NCBI GenBank assembly: GCA_002440765.1
Contig: DJVC01000099.1
Coordinates: 1-30,858 of the forward strand
Source of the DNA: a bacterium UBP3_UBA6266
Lineage (GTDB): Bacteria; Auribacterota; UBA6266
Direction: 5' to 3'
Length of the DNA stretch: 30,858 nt
Shown: positions 19,594 through 30,858 of the stretch, piece by piece
How positions within the stretch are numbered: position 1 is the first letter of the stretch
How the letters are laid out: each line of letters begins with the position of its first letter
Position numbers and translations under genes: made by a program
The notes under the pieces: generated by a model
What the model saw: the letters and a program-made list of their open reading frames with translations, nothing else
What the model was told of the DNA's origin: nothing
Database searches by the model: none

Positions 19594-21351
19594 ATGAAAA
19601 TCAAAATAGCGTATTTATCCGGTTTCTGCATGGGGGTCAGGAGAGCTACCGATATAGTCTATGCCCTCGCAAAAAACCTTCACAAGAAAAACAAGAAGAT
19701 TGTTACCTACGGGCCCTTGATCCATAATCCCCGGGTCCTGGAAGAACTTAAATCGAAAGGTATCGGAAGCATCAGCAAGCCTGAAGACGCGGATCCCGGC
19801 ACAACTGTGGTCATCAGAGCGCACGGAATTCCTCCGGATACGAGGGAAAAACTCATTTCGGCAAAAGCCCTTATATGCGATGCGACCTGTCCTGACGTAC
19901 TAAAAGTTCAAAGCCTGGTCAAAAAATATGCGAATAAAGGCTACACAATAATAATAATCGGCGACAATGGACATGCGGAGGTTACGGGTTTACTGGGTTT
20001 TGCCGGGAGTAAAAGTTTTGTAGTAAATAAACCCGGGGAAATCAACAATATCCCCGACATTGCGGGGGATATAGCCGTTGTCTGCCAGACCACCCAAAGC
20101 TCAGATCTTTTTGAAGCCGTTTCTTCCGAAATCAAGAACCGTTTTCCTCATGCCGCAATATACAATACAATATGCAAATCCACTGAAAAAAGACAGGAAG
20201 AAACAAGAAAGCTGGCGAAGGAAGCGGATGTAATGATAGTTTTAGGAGGCAAGAACAGCGCAAACACCCAGCGCCTGTACGAAATATGCATCAATGAAAA
20301 AAAGCCCGCTTACTACATAGAAAACGCCGATGAACTGAATGTCGATGAAATTTTGAAATACAGGACTGTTGGAATCACGGCAGGGGCTTCTACCCCCAAC
20401 TGGATGATAAAAAATCTTGTCCATGAATTAAAAAAGGCAAACCGGAAAAACCGTCTGAAGCTGTTATTAAACATTGAGAACATCATTTATTTTATAGTAA
20501 GGACCAATATTCTGATAGCTGTATCCGCCGCCGCTTTATCTTATATCTGCACTAAATTTTTCAAACTGCACAATCCTTCCATCCTTTATCCCCTGACTGC
20601 AGGATTGTATATATTTTCCATGCACACATTTAACCGCCTCTTCGACAATACGCTCGGAGAATTGAAAGATTCTTCGCGTATAGGTTTTATGGAATCCCAC
20701 CACGAAGAATTCAAGGCTCTTTCGATAATCGCCATGTTTGCAGTGCTCATTTGTTCTCTTATACTGGGTTTTTTCGCATTCATAATAGCATTCATTGCAT
20801 GTATAGCAGGCATATCATACGGCACAAAATTACTTCCGAAGACATGGGCTGTGAGAAGATTGAAAGATATTCCGATGTCGAAAAATATCCTGGTCACTCT
20901 TGCATGGGCTTCGATTACCGTTTTCCTGCCGCTCTTCGGGTATAAGGAGGTATCGCCCCCTCCGATAAGCCCGCTGCTGGTAGCATTTACTTTCACTTAT
21001 ATATCAATTTTAATATTTATCAGATGTCTGACGTATGACATGGTAGAAATACATGCAGACCGGATAATAGGGAAGGAAAGCCTGGCCGTATTAAAAGGTA
21101 AATCCTTTACCAAAAAAACCATAGCGGTTATGATATTGATTTCAGCTTTAATGTCTGTATCCGCATCCTACTTTAAAGTAATACCTTCATACGGTTACAT
21201 GTTGCCGGTGGTATCTGTTTATTCGTTATTCTACCTGTACCTGTATCATAAACGCCATTTTTCCCAGGAAGCTGTCTTCGACCTTATAGTCGATTCCAAA
21301 TTCATCCTCGCCGGATTAATAGTATATCTCGGCTTAAAATTTATCGGTTGA
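19594..21351 (+). CDS. ispH: IspH fused to a UbiA-like prenyltransferase domain
   Basis: A 585-residue two-domain protein in one uninterrupted frame. Residues 1 to about 285 are a complete 4-hydroxy-3-methylbut-2-enyl diphosphate reductase, the last MEP-pathway step that makes IPP and DMAPP. The cluster cysteines are Cys12 (GFCMGVRRA), Cys99 (DATCPDV) and Cys194 (TICKSTEKRQEE). His127 and Glu129 (HAEVTG) and the ASTPNWMI motif are present. Residues about 295-585 form eight or so membrane helices of a UbiA-like prenyltransferase. Its first Asp-rich motif is degenerate (HTFNRLFDNTLGELKDSSR), while the second, YDMVEIHADRIIGKESL, resembles the family DxxGDRxxGxxTL. IspH is normally a soluble stand-alone enzyme of about 280-310 residues. 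The fusion would tether it to a membrane enzyme using its prenyl products. The prenyl acceptor is unknown. No Shine-Dalgarno is evident. Confidence 0.9.
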   Translation: MKIKIAYLSGFCMGVRRATDIVYALAKNLHKKNKKIVTYGPLIHNPRVLEELKSKGIGSISKPEDADPGTTVVIRAHGIPPDTREKLISAKALICDATCPDVLKVQSLVKKYANKGYTIIIIGDNGHAEVTGLLGFAGSKSFVVNKPGEINNIPDIAGDIAVVCQTTQSSDLFEAVSSEIKNRFPHAAIYNTICKSTEKRQEETRKLAKEADVMIVLGGKNSANTQRLYEICINEKKPAYYIENADELNVDEILKYRTVGITAGASTPNWMIKNLVHELKKANRKNRLKLLLNIENIIYFIVRTNILIAVSAAALSYICTKFFKLHNPSILYPLTAGLYIFSMHTFNRLFDNTLGELKDSSRIGFMESHHEEFKALSIIAMFAVLICSLILGFFAFIIAFIACIAGISYGTKLLPKTWAVRRLKDIPMSKNILVTLAWASITVFLPLFGYKEVSPPPISPLLVAFTFTYISILIFIRCLTYDMVEIHADRIIGKESLAVLKGKSFTKKTIAVMILISALMSVSASYFKVIPSYGYMLPVVSVYSLFYLYLYHKRHFSQEAVFDLIVDSKFILAGLIVYLGLKFIG

Positions 21352-25786: not shown

Positions 25787-25828
25787 AACAAAGGGATTCA
25801 CTGATGCATGGTGAATCCCTTTGTTTGT
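25787..25828 (+). terminator. Intrinsic terminator after the TIGR04073 cluster
   Basis: AACAAAGGGATTCAC (25787-25801) and GTGAATCCCTTTGTT (25811-25825) are perfect 15-base reverse complements around a nine-base loop, with a T-rich 3' flank. This should stop the cluster transcript before the NifU-like gene, whose start is 28 bases further on. Confidence 0.85.
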
Positions 25829-25855
25829 CATAACATCAAACAATGGAGTTTCGTC

Positions 25856-26080
25856 ATGGAAGAAAAGATTAAAGATGTTCTGAATAACGAAGTCAGGCCT
25901 TATCTGCAATCCCACGGCGGCGATGCCGAATTTGTTTCTGTTGACGCGGAAGGAAATGTAAGCGTCCGGTTGAAAGGGGCCTGCGCGGGATGTTCCGGAG
26001 CTTTAATGACATTAAAAAACCTTGTTGAACAGGCTCTGAAAGAAAAAATACCCGGGGTTAAATCTGTAAAAGCAGTTTAA
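25856..26080 (+). CDS. NifU-like C-terminal domain protein (Fe-S scaffold/carrier)
   Basis: A 74-residue protein consisting only of the NifU C-terminal (Nfu) domain: VRPYLQSHGGDAEFVSVD, then LKGACAGCSGALMTLKNLVEQALKE. The CxxC pair is Cys43 and Cys46 in GACAGCSGA. Nfu proteins bind and transfer a [4Fe-4S] cluster to apo-proteins, usually as dimers. The start ATG 25856 follows a GGAG site (25845-25848) at normal spacing; an upstream in-frame ATG at 25808 falls inside the preceding terminator hairpin and is rejected. Only five bases separate it from the histidine kinase gene, so the three genes 25856-28573 form an operon. The need for Fe-S assembly fits the cluster-rich Rnf and IspH proteins in the window. 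Confidence 0.92.
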   Translation: MEEKIKDVLNNEVRPYLQSHGGDAEFVSVDAEGNVSVRLKGACAGCSGALMTLKNLVEQALKEKIPGVKSVKAV

Positions 26081-26085
26081 TAATT

Positions 26086-27249
26086 ATGACACAAAAACCC
26101 AAATTTATTGATAAGTTCATCCAGAACCTTGATAAGATCGATAAGCTGGATGTAGAAAAGTATTTTATTAATCTTTCCCGGGAAAAGGGATTCCTCGAAT
26201 CTGTATTCAACAACCTCAATGAAGGTATTGTTGTAATATCCAGCAGGGGCACTATAGCGTTTCTTAATTCAAAAGCCAAATCAATATTAGGCATCTTTTC
26301 CGAAGAATATAAGGGAAGGCACCTGCAGGATGTGATAAAAGACGCGTCTTTCCTGTCTTCCATACCGCTAAATGTAAAAACCGCATACAGTATTATCGAT
26401 AAGGAAATAACCGTTGATCACCCCAGAAAATCACTGATTAATATTAATGTAATACCGTTTGACGATAATAATTTATCCGGCATGGTAGTTGTTTTGAAAG
26501 ACATAACCGCCAGGAAAAGAATGGAAGAGGATACAAAACAATCTAAATTGGTGGAAACTTTTTCCAATCTCGCGGCAGGAATAGCGCACGAGATAGGCAA
26601 CCCCCTCAATTCACTCAATATTCATTTGCAACTGATAGACCGCGAAACCAAAAAATCAAAAACGGGAAAAAAGGTCAATGAACACATTTCTATCTGCAGA
26701 AATGAAATAAAACGTCTCGATGAAATAATTAACAGGTTTTTGCTGGCTCTGCGTTCTTCAGAAAAACCGATGGAAAGAAAAAGCGTAAACAAAATTATAT
26801 CTTCCATAGTAAAACTAATGCAGCCGGAATTTAATTCAAAAAAAATCGACCTCACTATTTCCCTGAACAAGAATCTGCCGGATACTCTTCTGAATGAAGG
26901 AGAAATAAAACAATTAATAGTAAATATACTGAAAAACGCCATTCAATCAATTAATCATGCCGGAGGGAAAATCAGTATTTCCACCCTTCAGGAACCGTAT
27001 TATATACTTATTAATATTAAGGATAACGGTGCGGGCATTTCAGACAGCATCAAACAAAAAATATTCGAGCCTTTTTTCTCCACAAAAGAATCCGGCTCGG
27101 GGCTCGGGCTTCTGATCGCATCAAGAATAGTGTCGGAACATAAGGGCACACTGGAAGTAGAAAGCAGCAAAAAAAACGGCACCTTGATTAAAATAAGACT
27201 TCCCGTAAAGACTGATGAATTAAAATTACTTCCGCAGGGAGGCAAATGA
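26086..27249 (+). CDS. NtrB-like soluble PAS sensor histidine kinase
   Basis: A 387-residue two-component kinase without transmembrane segments, so probably cytosolic. A PAS domain spans about residues 35-150 (FLESVFNNLNEGIVVISSRGTIAFLNSKAKSILG, then the VVVLKDITARKRMEE end). The phosphoacceptor segment is AAGIAHEIGNPLNSLNIHLQ (His168). The ATPase domain carries LIVNILKNAIQSI (N box), DNGAGI (G1), IFEPFFSTK (F box) and GSGLGLLIASRIV (G2). The HEIGNPL box and the order of motifs are typical of kinases that partner NtrC-family regulators, and one lies directly downstream with only a one-base gap. The signal sensed is unknown. It may be redox- or Fe-S-related given the Nfu gene upstream, which is speculation. 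Confidence 0.92.
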   Translation: MTQKPKFIDKFIQNLDKIDKLDVEKYFINLSREKGFLESVFNNLNEGIVVISSRGTIAFLNSKAKSILGIFSEEYKGRHLQDVIKDASFLSSIPLNVKTAYSIIDKEITVDHPRKSLININVIPFDDNNLSGMVVVLKDITARKRMEEDTKQSKLVETFSNLAAGIAHEIGNPLNSLNIHLQLIDRETKKSKTGKKVNEHISICRNEIKRLDEIINRFLLALRSSEKPMERKSVNKIISSIVKLMQPEFNSKKIDLTISLNKNLPDTLLNEGEIKQLIVNILKNAIQSINHAGGKISISTLQEPYYILINIKDNGAGISDSIKQKIFEPFFSTKESGSGLGLLIASRIVSEHKGTLEVESSKKNGTLIKIRLPVKTDELKLLPQGGK

Positions 27250-27250
27250 T

Positions 27251-28573
27251 TTGAATAAAAAAACCATACTGATTGCGGATGATGAAATAAACACTCTTAA
27301 AGGGCTTGCATCCGCCCTTTCCGAAAAATACCGTGTCATAACAGCTTCAAACGGTCAGGAAGCATATGAATTATTCACATCTAACATGCCTTCGATAGTT
27401 TTAACGGATATCAGGATGCCGGTAATGGGCGGTCTGACACTTCTGGATAAGATAAGATCTGCAAATCCGGATACACCCGTAATCCTTCTTACGGCGTATG
27501 GAACCATTAATAACGCCGTTGAAGCCATGAAGAGGGGGGCTTCCGACTATATTACAAAGCCCGTCAATCTCGACAAACTTGAAGCTATTATTGAAAAATT
27601 CGTTGACAAAAAAGTCGCAACAGGCGCTCTCAGGAATCAATCAACCATTATAGGCAATGATACGACACTAAAAACTATTTATGAACAGGCTTCTAAAGTG
27701 GCATTGACGGATACCACGATCTTAATAACGGGCGAAAGCGGCACAGGCAAAGAGATACTGGCCCAGGACATACATAAAATAAGTAAAAGACCGGGGAAGT
27801 TCACTCCTGTTCATTGCGCCGCGCTTCCTGAAACTTTACTCGAAAGTGAACTTTTTGGGCATGAAAAGGGTTCATTTACCGGTGCATCCTCACGAAAAGC
27901 CGGGCGTTTTGAATTAGCCGAAAAAGGAACAATATTCTTAGATGAAATCAGCGAAATTTCCACATCAATACAGACAAAGCTGCTCAGGGTGCTTCAGGAT
28001 AAAACATTTGAAAGAGTAGGCGGGACCCAGACCCTGAAAGCGGACATAAGAATTATAGCAGCTACAAATAAACATCTGGAACCGTTGATTAAGTCCGGCA
28101 GATTCAGAGAAGATTTATATTACCGTTTAAATGTTGTACATTTTCATCTGCCCCCCCTGAGAGAGCGAATCGGAGATGTCCCGCTTTTTGTCAATCATTT
28201 TATCGAGGACCTTGCTAGATCATCCGGTAAAATAATCGAGGGGATTACGGACGAAGCGCTGAAACTGCTTACAGGTTATACCTGGCCCGGGAATATCCGC
28301 CAGTTGAGAAATACCCTTGAGCACATGATATTGTTCAGTTCTTCCCGTATTCTCGACATAAAAGACATACCCCCCGAAATTATAAAAGAGAGCGGTCTTC
28401 CCTCAGGCAAAAACATTACAACAGGAAAAGGCACAATTAAAGACCTGGAGAAGGACCTTATTCTGAAAGAATTAGAAAAATCCGGCGGGAACAAGACAGA
28501 AGTCGCAAACTGCCTCGGAATAAGCAGGAGAACATTATACCGAAAACTCAGACAATATAACATAAGCCTGTAA
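27251..28573 (+). CDS. NtrC-family sigma-54-dependent response regulator
   Basis: A 440-residue transcription activator. The receiver domain (residues 1-120) has phosphoacceptor Asp53 in LTDIRMP and the conserved lysine in ITKPVN. The AAA+ domain has Walker A GESGTGKE (161-168), the sigma-54 contact loop GSFTGA (207-212; consensus GAFTGA, with Ser in second place) and Walker B TIFLDEI. R-finger region RIGDVPLFVNHF and GYTWPGNIRQLRN follow. The C-terminal Fis-type helix-turn-helix is NKTEVANCLGISRRTLYRKL. The start is TTG 27251; the ideal AGGGAGG site (27236-27242), eight bases upstream, supports it. The gene is followed by a 202-base intergenic region with a strong sigma-54 promoter driving dnaK, its most obvious candidate target. 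Confidence 0.95.
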   Translation: MNKKTILIADDEINTLKGLASALSEKYRVITASNGQEAYELFTSNMPSIVLTDIRMPVMGGLTLLDKIRSANPDTPVILLTAYGTINNAVEAMKRGASDYITKPVNLDKLEAIIEKFVDKKVATGALRNQSTIIGNDTTLKTIYEQASKVALTDTTILITGESGTGKEILAQDIHKISKRPGKFTPVHCAALPETLLESELFGHEKGSFTGASSRKAGRFELAEKGTIFLDEISEISTSIQTKLLRVLQDKTFERVGGTQTLKADIRIIAATNKHLEPLIKSGRFREDLYYRLNVVHFHLPPLRERIGDVPLFVNHFIEDLARSSGKIIEGITDEALKLLTGYTWPGNIRQLRNTLEHMILFSSSRILDIKDIPPEIIKESGLPSGKNITTGKGTIKDLEKDLILKELEKSGGNKTEVANCLGISRRTLYRKLRQYNISL

Positions 28574-28589
28574 TAATACAGTATCTTTA

Positions 28590-28626
28590 TGTCACAATAA
28601 GCCCGCATGTAACTTTTTGACACAAT
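28590..28626 (+). repeat. Direct repeat, possible activator site upstream of dnaK
   Basis: TGTCACAAT (28590-28598) and TGACACAAT (28618-28626) match at eight of nine positions and are 28 bases apart. They lie roughly 110-150 bases before the predicted sigma-54 start, where enhancer sites for NtrC-type activators usually sit. Confidence 0.45.
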
Positions 28627-28659
28627 CCGGAGATTGAACAAAATACAACATATATTGTC

Positions 28660-28684
28660 TAACATGCTGCCCTGCAATATGTTA
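28660..28684. promoter_or_regulatory. Dyad element, possible activator site upstream of dnaK
   Basis: TAACATGCTGC (28660-28670) and GCAATATGTTA (28674-28684) pair over nine positions around a three-base centre, with a two-base internal mismatch. The centre is about 40 bases upstream of the -24 element. It suits binding by a dimeric regulator such as the adjacent NtrC-like protein. An overlapping arm (AACATATATTG, 28647-28657) adds a further partial match. Confidence 0.5.
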
Positions 28685-28711
28685 TCTACATTATGTATTC
28701 CATGGTAATGC

Positions 28712-28728
28712 TTGGCACACATATTGCA
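28712..28728 (+). promoter_or_regulatory. Sigma-54 (-24/-12) promoter of dnaK
   Basis: TTGGCACACATATTGCA matches the sigma-54 consensus (YTGGCAC, five bases, TTGCW) at every conserved position; the GG (28714-28715) and GC (28726-28727) are separated by the required ten bases. Transcription would start near 28738, about 38 bases before the dnaK start. No convincing sigma-70 promoter or CIRCE element was found in the same gap (28574-28775). Confidence 0.88.
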
Positions 28729-28775
28729 TCTATTAATAAGCACGTCTTATATAAAATGATACTAAGGAGGCTATT

Positions 28776-30713
28776 ATGTCAAAGGTCATTGGTATAGATC
28801 TGGGAACCACAAATTCCTGCGTAGCGTTTATGGAATCGGGAAAACCTGTTGTAATTCCAAATTCCGAAGGAGACAGGACAACCCCTTCAGTGGTGGCATT
28901 TGCAAAATCAGGGGAAAGGCTTGTGGGAAAAACAGCAAAAAGACAGGCAATCACTAATCCTCACAATACGGTCTTTTCCATCAAAAGATTCATGGGAAGA
29001 AAGTTTAAAGAGGTCGGGGGAGAAATAAAGGAAGTGCCTTTCAGGGTCGCGGCAAGGGACAACGGGGATGCCAGTGTCGAAATCGAAAACAAGAAATACA
29101 GCCCTCCGGAAATATCCGCCATGATTCTTCAGAAATTAAAATCCGACGCAGAGGCGTATCTTGGCGAGAAAGTTAGCAAAGCCGTTATTACCGTACCCGC
29201 GTATTTCAACGATAGCCAGAGACAAGCCACAAAGGACGCGGGTAGAATAGCCGGGCTTGAGGTAGAGAGAATAATAAATGAACCTACAGCGGCTTCTCTC
29301 GCTTACGGGCTGGACAAGAAAAAAGACGAAAAAATAGCTGTTTACGATTTGGGCGGAGGAACATTTGATATTTCCATACTTGACATAGGAGAAGGCGTAT
29401 TCGAAGTTAAATCCACAAACGGCAATACTCATTTAGGAGGAGATGACTTTGACCAAAGAATCATCGATTGGCTGGTGGATAACTTTAAAAAAGAAAATGG
29501 GATCGACCTGAAAAAAGATCCTATGGCCCTTCAAAGACTGAAAGAAGCCTCGGAAAAGGCTAAGATCGAATTATCTTCCTCAACCGAAACCGATATTAAT
29601 CTGCCTTTTGTTACGGCTGATTCGAACGGGCCAAAACATCTTGTAATCAAACTTACCAGATCAAAACTCGAACAACTGGTAGATGATCTTGTCCATTCAA
29701 CCATAGAACCATGCCGGAAAGCTCTTAAAGACGCGGGGTTAAAGGCTTCGGAAATTGATGAAGTTATTCTTGTGGGCGGTATGACAAGAATGCCCATGGT
29801 ACAGGAAACAGTAAAGAATTTCTTCGGCAAACCACCGCACAAGGGTGTCAATCCGGACGAGGTTGTCGCAGTAGGGGCGGCAATTCAGGCAGGCATAATA
29901 CAGGGCGATGTCCAGGATGTCGTTCTTCTTGATGTAACACCTCTTTCCCTCGGCATTGAAACACTGGGCGGGGTGTTTACAAAATTAATAGAAAGGAACA
30001 CAACAATACCTGTGGACAAGAGTGAAATATTTTCGACGGCTGCTGACAGCCAGACAAGCGTAGAAATCCATGTTCTTCAGGGAGAAAGGCCAATGGCTGC
30101 CGACAATAAGACCATAGGCAGATTCCAACTGGTGGGAATTCCTCCCGCCCCAAGAGGGGTTCCGCAGATAGAAGTAAAATTTAACCTGGACAGGAACGGA
30201 ATCCTGAATGTATCGGCGAAAGACCTTGGAACCGGTAAAGAGCAGAATATCACGATAAAGGCATCCAGCGGACTTTCAGATAATGAAATCGACCAGATGG
30301 TAAAAGATGCGGAAGCTCATGCTTCGGAAGATATAAAGAAAAAAGAAAAAATCGAAGCCAAAAATAACGCGGAAAACCTTATATATCAGGCAGAAAAAAC
30401 ATTGAAAGAACACAAAGACAAGATCCCTGCGGACAAAAAAGATGATATAGAAAAATCTGTCAATGAACTCAAAGATGCCTTAAAATCGGAGGACACTGAT
30501 AATATCAAGCAGAAAACTGAATTATTGATGAACGCTCTGCATGCGGTATCTTCCATCATCTACCAGAAAACCGGCCAGGATCAGGATAAGACACCGCAGC
30601 CGGAACAGGACAAGAAACAGGGGAAAGACGGGAATCCGGAGAATGTCGTAGATGCGGATTTTAAAGTAGTCGATGACGACAAAGAGAATAACGGCAAAAA
30701 TAAAACGAAATAA
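28776..30713 (+). CDS. dnaK: DnaK (Hsp70) molecular chaperone
   Basis: A complete 645-residue cytosolic ATP-dependent chaperone. The ATPase domain starts with [29 protein letters not shown] and carries [36 protein letters not shown], the [17 protein letters not shown] phosphate-binding loop and [14 protein letters not shown]. The linker [19 protein letters not shown] leads to the substrate-binding domain. A charged lid and tail end in [23 protein letters not shown], a normal DnaK-type end. A strong AAGGAGG site precedes ATG 28776. groES follows after 15 bases, while grpE, dnaJ and hrcA are absent from both sides. The upstream sigma-54 promoter is unusual for this gene. Confidence 0.98.
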
Positions 30714-30728
30714 GAAGGAGGGTAACAC

Positions 30729-30858
30729 ATGAAAATCAGGCCTCTCGAAGACAGAGTGCTAGTCCAAAGGGTTGAAGAAAAAGAAGTGAAAAAAGGCGGG
30801 ATAATAATACCTGATACCGCCAAGGAAAAACCGCAACAGGCAAAAGTAATAGAATTGC
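30729..30858 (+). CDS. groES: GroES (Hsp10) co-chaperonin, 5' part
   Basis: The gene runs off the window; 43 codons are visible. [19 protein letters not shown], then [21 protein letters not shown], is the standard GroES N-terminal half including the mobile loop ([13 protein letters not shown]) that contacts GroEL. A strong AAGGAGGG site (30715-30722) lies six bases before ATG 30729. It is 15 bases after dnaK, so it is expected on the same transcript, probably with groEL next outside the window. Confidence 0.97.

Follow-up and report, generated by a model that had tools for sequence, protein, structure and literature searches.

A kinase-regulator pair encoded directly upstream of dnaK probably activates dnaK and groES through sigma-54 from palindromic enhancers, in place of sigma-32 and HrcA, in the 30,858-nucleotide stretch of DNA analysed here (the window). 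The first-pass annotation had proposed that this pair switches on the chaperones, and the proposal gained from comparison between genomes: the promoter and, upstream, a palindrome are conserved in two phyla, kinase and regulator genes are linked to dnaK in some lineages and to groES in another, and in Auribacterota HrcA is rare and RpoH was not found. We further infer regulator binding to the palindrome, phosphotransfer, a single transcript, and a signal, for which protein damage, a shortage of chaperones or heat are the likeliest candidates.

Genes and sigma-54 element of the dnaK locus

A sigma-54 activator gene and its kinase had been reported directly before dnaK, and Pfam domains confirmed both. 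The sensor kinase (26086..27249, + strand, 387 aa) has a PAS-HisKA-HATPase architecture (PF00512, PF02518 and PAS families). The NtrC-type response regulator (27251..28573, + strand, 440 aa) carries Response_reg (PF00072), Sigma54_activat (PF00158) and HTH_8 (PF02954), giving the order of receiver, AAA+ sigma-54 activator and Fis-type helix-turn-helix that marks an NtrC-type enhancer-binding protein. When eight sequences of each protein were aligned, the N-terminus and His168 of the kinase were conserved and Asp53 of the receiver was invariant. The kinase had no membrane segment (best 19-residue hydropathy 0.8), which fits the cytosolic signal suggested earlier. AtoS and AtoC were the best-scoring named NCBIfam models for the pair, with scores below their cut-offs (NF008468, 264.3 of 646 bits; NF008469, 460.5 of 714 bits); scores against NtrC and NtrB were also below the cut-offs (TIGR01818, 404.7 of 558.6 bits; NF008293, 127.2 of 240 bits).

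The regulator was 81% identical to the copy in genome G002 and 68% identical to that in G003, both of which stand before dnaK. Its sigma-54 contact loop reads GSFTGA, versus GAFTGA in seven aligned relatives. The closest kinase bearing an organism name, from Candidatus Aureabacteria (Ca. Auribacterota, PVC group, at NCBI), was 89% identical to the window kinase. In the RpoB tree, the window genome and the rest of its phylum formed a group with Lentisphaerae, Victivallaceae and Pontiella (support 100/99), and one Omnitrophota genome was placed next to that group (93/81). Elsewhere in the window, a single reading frame (19594-21351) encodes an unusual fusion of an IspH/LytB domain (residues 3-279) with a UbiA prenyltransferase domain (residues 334-556).

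The dnaK gene (28776..30713, + strand, 645 aa) scored 1016 bits with TIGR02350 (cut-off 822.55). The groES gene (30729..30858, + strand), recognised from its translation and a Cpn10 match (G000:C129:30732-30908), runs off the end of the window; it begins 15 bases after dnaK and presumably lies on the same transcript. Two overlapping Cpn10 matches in different frames were seen at G000:C129:30732-31006, partly beyond the window end, and probably reflect a frame error at the contig edge.

The gap between the regulator stop and dnaK covers 202 bases (28574-28775). The -24/-12 element with exact GG-N10-GC spacing that the first-pass annotation had described there was confirmed: TGGCACACATATTGCA (28713-28728, + strand) is an exact match to the consensus, and within TTGGCACACATATTGCA (28712-28728) ten bases lie between GG (28714-28715) and GC (28726-28727). 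The element is separated from the dnaK ATG at 28776 by 47 bases. When both strands of the whole window were searched with TGGCACNNNNNTTGCW (TGGCAC-N5-TTGCW), it was the sole zero-mismatch match and no one-mismatch match was found; sites with up to three mismatches numbered 80, below the shuffled mean of 103.6. A check for rpoN, suggested at the same time, returned a Sigma54_DBD protein in the genome (PF04552, 203 bits, above the Pfam cut-off). The predicted element is almost certainly a sigma-54 promoter, and transcription is expected to start near 28739, given the usual spacing from the -12 element. A perfect 10-base inverted repeat was also observed (TGCAATATGT at 28673-28682 and ACATATTGCA at 28719-28728); its right arm overlaps the -12 element, and it may be accidental or mark another binding site.

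Conservation of the promoter and the upstream palindrome

Promoters were searched from 150 to 20 bases before the DnaK motif, and expected counts were taken from a first-order Markov model of the sequences searched. Conservation counts exclude L212 (from a set of 27) and L379 (from a set of 22), which were dropped for having no start motif, together with L387 (a DnaK-like protein of 42% identity that lacks the element) and any second copies or fragments of DnaK. In the nearest examined relatives, the element was retained as TGGCATATATATTGCA (G002) and TGGCACATATATTGCT (G003), and much of the surrounding gap had changed. Among the 30 Auribacterota dnaK loci, counting the window, 20 kept it with no more than one mismatch and 23 with no more than two (expected 0.04 and 0.27, respectively), so that the conservation in relatives named earlier as a check was found in both near relatives and across most of the phylum's dnaK loci. 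The remaining seven loci had no -24/-12 element at up to two mismatches. In a control stretch further upstream, the Auribacterota counts were 1/27 and 2/27.

The element was also evident in Verrucomicrobiota. To keep the choice of genomes independent of the kinase, 39 were drawn evenly from the phylum to which a Prosthecobacter MAG belongs; 30 gave loci, of which 29 were usable (L397, with 25 bases upstream, was dropped). At most one mismatch was found in 22/29 and at most two in 28/29 (expected 0.09 and 0.41); the sites of L416, L420, L421 and L423 start 42-47 bases before the DnaK motif, so close to the gene that their role as promoters is doubtful. With a minimum distance of 36 bases from the DnaK motif, the counts were 20/29 and 24/29. 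Named PVC loci selected through the kinase, and thus not an independent sample, gave 13/20 and 17/20, or 12/20 and 15/20 without near sites; L194 and L203 are common to this set and the even draw. Control of this kind had been called uncommon, but among the Verrucomicrobiota sampled, and in a large part of Auribacterota, it is the common arrangement at dnaK.

In other groups, the -24/-12 element was absent from the Spirochaetes (0/5 loci) and from other phyla (0/9 loci). It was present in 3/5 FCB/KSB1/Gemmatimonadetes loci and 2/4 Planctomycetota loci, in agreement with the covered parts of PMC12316311. The dnaK loci L367, L374, L376 and L380 (KSB1, Bacteroidetes, Ignavibacteriales and Phycisphaerae) carried a -24/-12 element with at most one mismatch and lacked the full eight key bases of the palindrome described below, hinting that other activators may act on the same target there.

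A 15-base palindrome, GNGNCA-N3-TGNCNC, missed by the first-pass annotation, was found upstream of the promoter, usually at a distance of 80-150 bases from the -24 element and frequently in two copies (e.g., GAGACATAATGTCTC in G006 and GTGCCATCATGGCAC at L198). All eight key bases were present in 25 of 36 loci having a promoter (Markov expectation 0.06). They were retained in 15/30 Auribacterota loci (expected 0.11), in 18/20 kinase-selected PVC loci (expected 0.06), in the single Omnitrophota locus, and in 22/29 loci of the even draw (expected 0.13), which is the fair test, since the consensus was derived from the Auribacterota and named PVC loci. The full palindrome was missing from all 23 loci sampled in Spirochaetes, Planctomycetota, FCB/KSB1/Gemmatimonadetes and other phyla. 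It is very likely an enhancer in the clade.

The window holds two predicted, degenerate enhancer copies with no strand assigned, each with six of the eight key bases. Copy 1 (GTATCTTTATGTCAC, 28581-28595) reads GTATCCTTTTGTCCC in G002 and retains only 5/8 key bases in G003; copy 2 (GTAACTTTTTGACAC, 28609-28623), standing 89 bases before the -24 element, is kept in both. Together they form an 18-base direct repeat of 83% identity, and they were the sole 6-of-8 sites in the window located 60-130 bases before a -24/-12 element with at most one mismatch. Sites of this score are common (64 in the window), so the case for the window enhancers rests on their pairing and conservation.

The strict palindrome GNGNCATWATGNCNC is not enriched genome-wide: 35 sites were found in 21 of 44 genomes, and the backwards pattern gave 29. 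Six of the 35 sites stood before dnaK or groES (G006, G007, G009, G010, G038 and G042). The other 29 had no GG-N10-GC with fewer than two mismatches within 220 bases; a strict search misses degenerate sites, so the regulon may still extend further. Strict sites without a nearby -24/-12 element included L297 (G006:C7:85840-85854), just before an RpoS/RpoD-like sigma gene, and L324 (G000:C11:32747-32761), a perfect intergenic palindrome in the window's own genome.

Linkage of the pair to chaperone genes and competing controls

Linkage was surveyed in 33 further dnaK regions from 32 genomes, several of them cut by contig ends. Kinase and regulator were found near dnaK on the same strand in seven others (G003, G009, G012, G017, G020, G024 and G030), the kinase-regulator-dnaK order of the window being repeated in G003 and G020, and in G002 the regulator precedes dnaK at a contig end. 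The conserved gene order anticipated earlier was thus recovered in part, but 24 of the 33 regions, contig ends included, had no kinase or regulator match nearby, or had a partial kinase (G007) or a fragment of a different regulator (G033, where the fragment beside dnaK was not that genome's best regulator match).

In two genomes of family f5 (G007 and G021), the pair lies directly before groES with palindromes between, and no f5 dnaK examined carries the promoter element. The f5 groES is preceded by TGGTATCATCCTTGCA in G021 and by only the weak TGGCATACATTCTGTT in G007, where neither groES nor either of the two dnaK genes has a GG-N10-GC site at up to two mismatches. In family f6 (L096 in G008 and L095 in G023), dnaK has no element of its own and comes last in a groES-groEL-(omega-like)-(GrpE-like)-dnaK run, the two bracketed names being given by eye from the sequence; a -24/-12 element and a palindrome (7/8) precede groES. 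Among nine groES loci without dnaK directly before them, six had both elements, two had none (second copies in G007 and G021), and one was cut (L253).

Of the 22 Auribacterota regulators shown, 18 read SRRT in the recognition helix (G003 and G008 have SRKT), as did 11/12 from other PVC; GRKT or ARKT stood in 8/8 spirochaete regulators, four of which came from genomes whose tested dnaK lacks promoter and palindrome. The helix letters thus vary with the presence of the palindrome, which is consistent with, though no proof of, a regulator that reads it. An Nfu (NifU-like) gene (25808-26080) lies upstream of the kinase, and the first-pass annotation had taken it as a hint of oxidative or Fe-S damage. 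This did not hold as a general clue to the signal: the only neighbourhoods examined in which Nfu stands next to the kinase are those of the window's family (the window, G002 and G003). In G018, an Nfu-like match (44%, 55 bits) was found about 1.3 kb past the regulator.

The promoter and palindromes could be real and yet be used by another NtrC-type activator, with the pair serving elsewhere and its position being inherited gene order. The regulator has 15 matches in the window genome, many relatives with both promoter and palindrome (e.g., G005, G010 and G025) do not carry the pair close to dnaK, and in family f2 the palindrome is kept and the best kinase matches start only at about residue 39. 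However, the pair moves with the chaperones, being near dnaK in several families and before groES in f5, and the letters of the recognition helix differ where there is no palindrome, which makes a different activator rather unlikely. The window pair is thus quite likely the activator at the palindrome. Chance resemblance of the -24/-12 match has already been refuted and retains hardly any probability; few letters of the motif are fixed (about ten), but its recurrence at this position upstream of dnaK in two phyla is far above expectation.

The first-pass annotation had also seen neither sigma-70 or sigma-32 promoters nor HrcA/CIRCE control. CIRCE was indeed not found in the window at up to three mismatches, but the claim is not strictly right, because a sigma-70-like match (TTGACA-16-CAAAAT, 10/12) is present at 28617-28644. 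Such a promoter could be the main driver of dnaK, with sigma-54 adding expression under some condition, e.g., starvation; dnaK is required even in the absence of stress, and a basal promoter would suit that need. Against this, sigma-70-like matches in 28500-28800 numbered 3 vs. 1.5 expected, and the one in question overlaps enhancer copy 2 and has its TTGACA altered to TTGTCA in G002 and ATGACA in G003, leaving a main sigma-70 promoter improbable.

Evidence for the other heat-shock controls was sparse. HrcA was found in 2 of 44 genomes (G015 and G022), beside dnaK in both, and gave no match in the window genome (89.7% complete); with incomplete genomes a single absence weighs little, but the pattern over 44 does carry weight. 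The G015 dnaK, one of the 23 Auribacterota loci with an element at up to two mismatches, has only CGGCACCGGCCTCGCT as its element and no palindrome; one G015 groES has both. The CIRCE search at relatives' loci, made over 450 bases with a strict regular expression, says little, since it was empty even in hrcA-bearing G015. RpoH was rejected as a rival controller: TIGR02392 matches occurred in 43 of 44 genomes, all below the cut-off, which was passed in 0/44, and the one candidate scanned, from G006, was RpoS/RpoD-like (287 bits to RpoS vs. 162 to RpoH).

Proposed circuit and comparison with known systems

In the circuit proposed for the window, closed sigma-54 RNA polymerase would sit at 28713-28728. 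The soluble PAS kinase (26086-27249), once triggered, would phosphorylate the regulator (27251-28573), which would bind the palindromes at 28581-28595 and 28609-28623 and open the promoter through its AAA+ domain; dnaK and groES would then be transcribed. Heat or protein damage is slightly favoured as the signal. The same circuit probably operates in much of Auribacterota and in Verrucomicrobiota, where the main cytosolic chaperones would be under its control instead of that of sigma-32 or HrcA/CIRCE. If this is true, chaperone induction would be activated and ATP-gated, unlike derepression from HrcA or a rise in sigma-32. Verrucomicrobiota include the gut genus Akkermansia, and the promoter, enhancer sequence and candidate kinase-regulator pair identified here make the circuit directly testable in a cultured member.

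Textbook control of chaperones is by a heat-shock sigma factor or a heat-shock repressor. HrcA/CIRCE and sigma-32 act on the same targets, dnaK and groES(L), but through a repressor or a sigma-70-class factor, whereas the candidate circuit would act by enhancer activation. The E. coli-type AtoS/AtoC and NtrB/NtrC systems share their domain order with the window pair, which scores far below all four cut-offs; their targets are acetoacetate or nitrogen genes.

The chlamydial AtoS/AtoC pair (CtcB/CtcC) is alike in being a PVC kinase with an NtrC-type regulator acting on sigma-54 (PMC7482065 and PMC8762339), and heat shock raises its atoS and atoC (PMC8762339). It differs in that the activator CtcC has no DNA-binding domain (PMC7482065), and in that chlamydial dnaK and groE are under HrcA/CIRCE and heat shock lowers rpoN (PMC8762339). 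We tentatively suggest, as a less probable extension, that the two-component sigma-54 switch is the ancestral and principal heat-shock circuit of the cytosol in Verrucomicrobiota and Auribacterota. It would add to sigma-32 and HrcA a third mode, in which a soluble PAS kinase reads chaperone load; the chlamydial AtoS/AtoC would then be a descendant turned to development, with Chlamydia keeping HrcA for dnaK.

In Rhodopirellula, heat induces dnaK and groEL, and no regulation of rpoH or rpoN was observed, according to the covered parts of PMC2754498. The closest match in target genes and promoter class is a set of predicted sigma-54 promoters for GroEL, GroES, GrpE, DnaJ, DnaK and IbpA genes in Planctomycetota and Bacteroidota (PMC12316311, PLoS One 2025), with GrpE/GroES being sigma-54 dependent in some Bacteroidota; for this chaperone cluster, the covered parts of that paper name no activator or enhancer and no Verrucomicrobiota or Auribacterota. 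The sampled dnaK loci of Planctomycetota and Bacteroidota lacked the palindrome's full eight key bases. A literature search of titles and abstract openings, with subscription papers and preprints mostly outside it, returned no description of this circuit in Verrucomicrobiota or Auribacterota, nor any account of how Verrucomicrobiota regulate their main chaperones. Sigma-54 promoters of chaperone genes have been predicted before, and the dedicated kinase-regulator pair, its enhancer and the phylum scope appear to be new.
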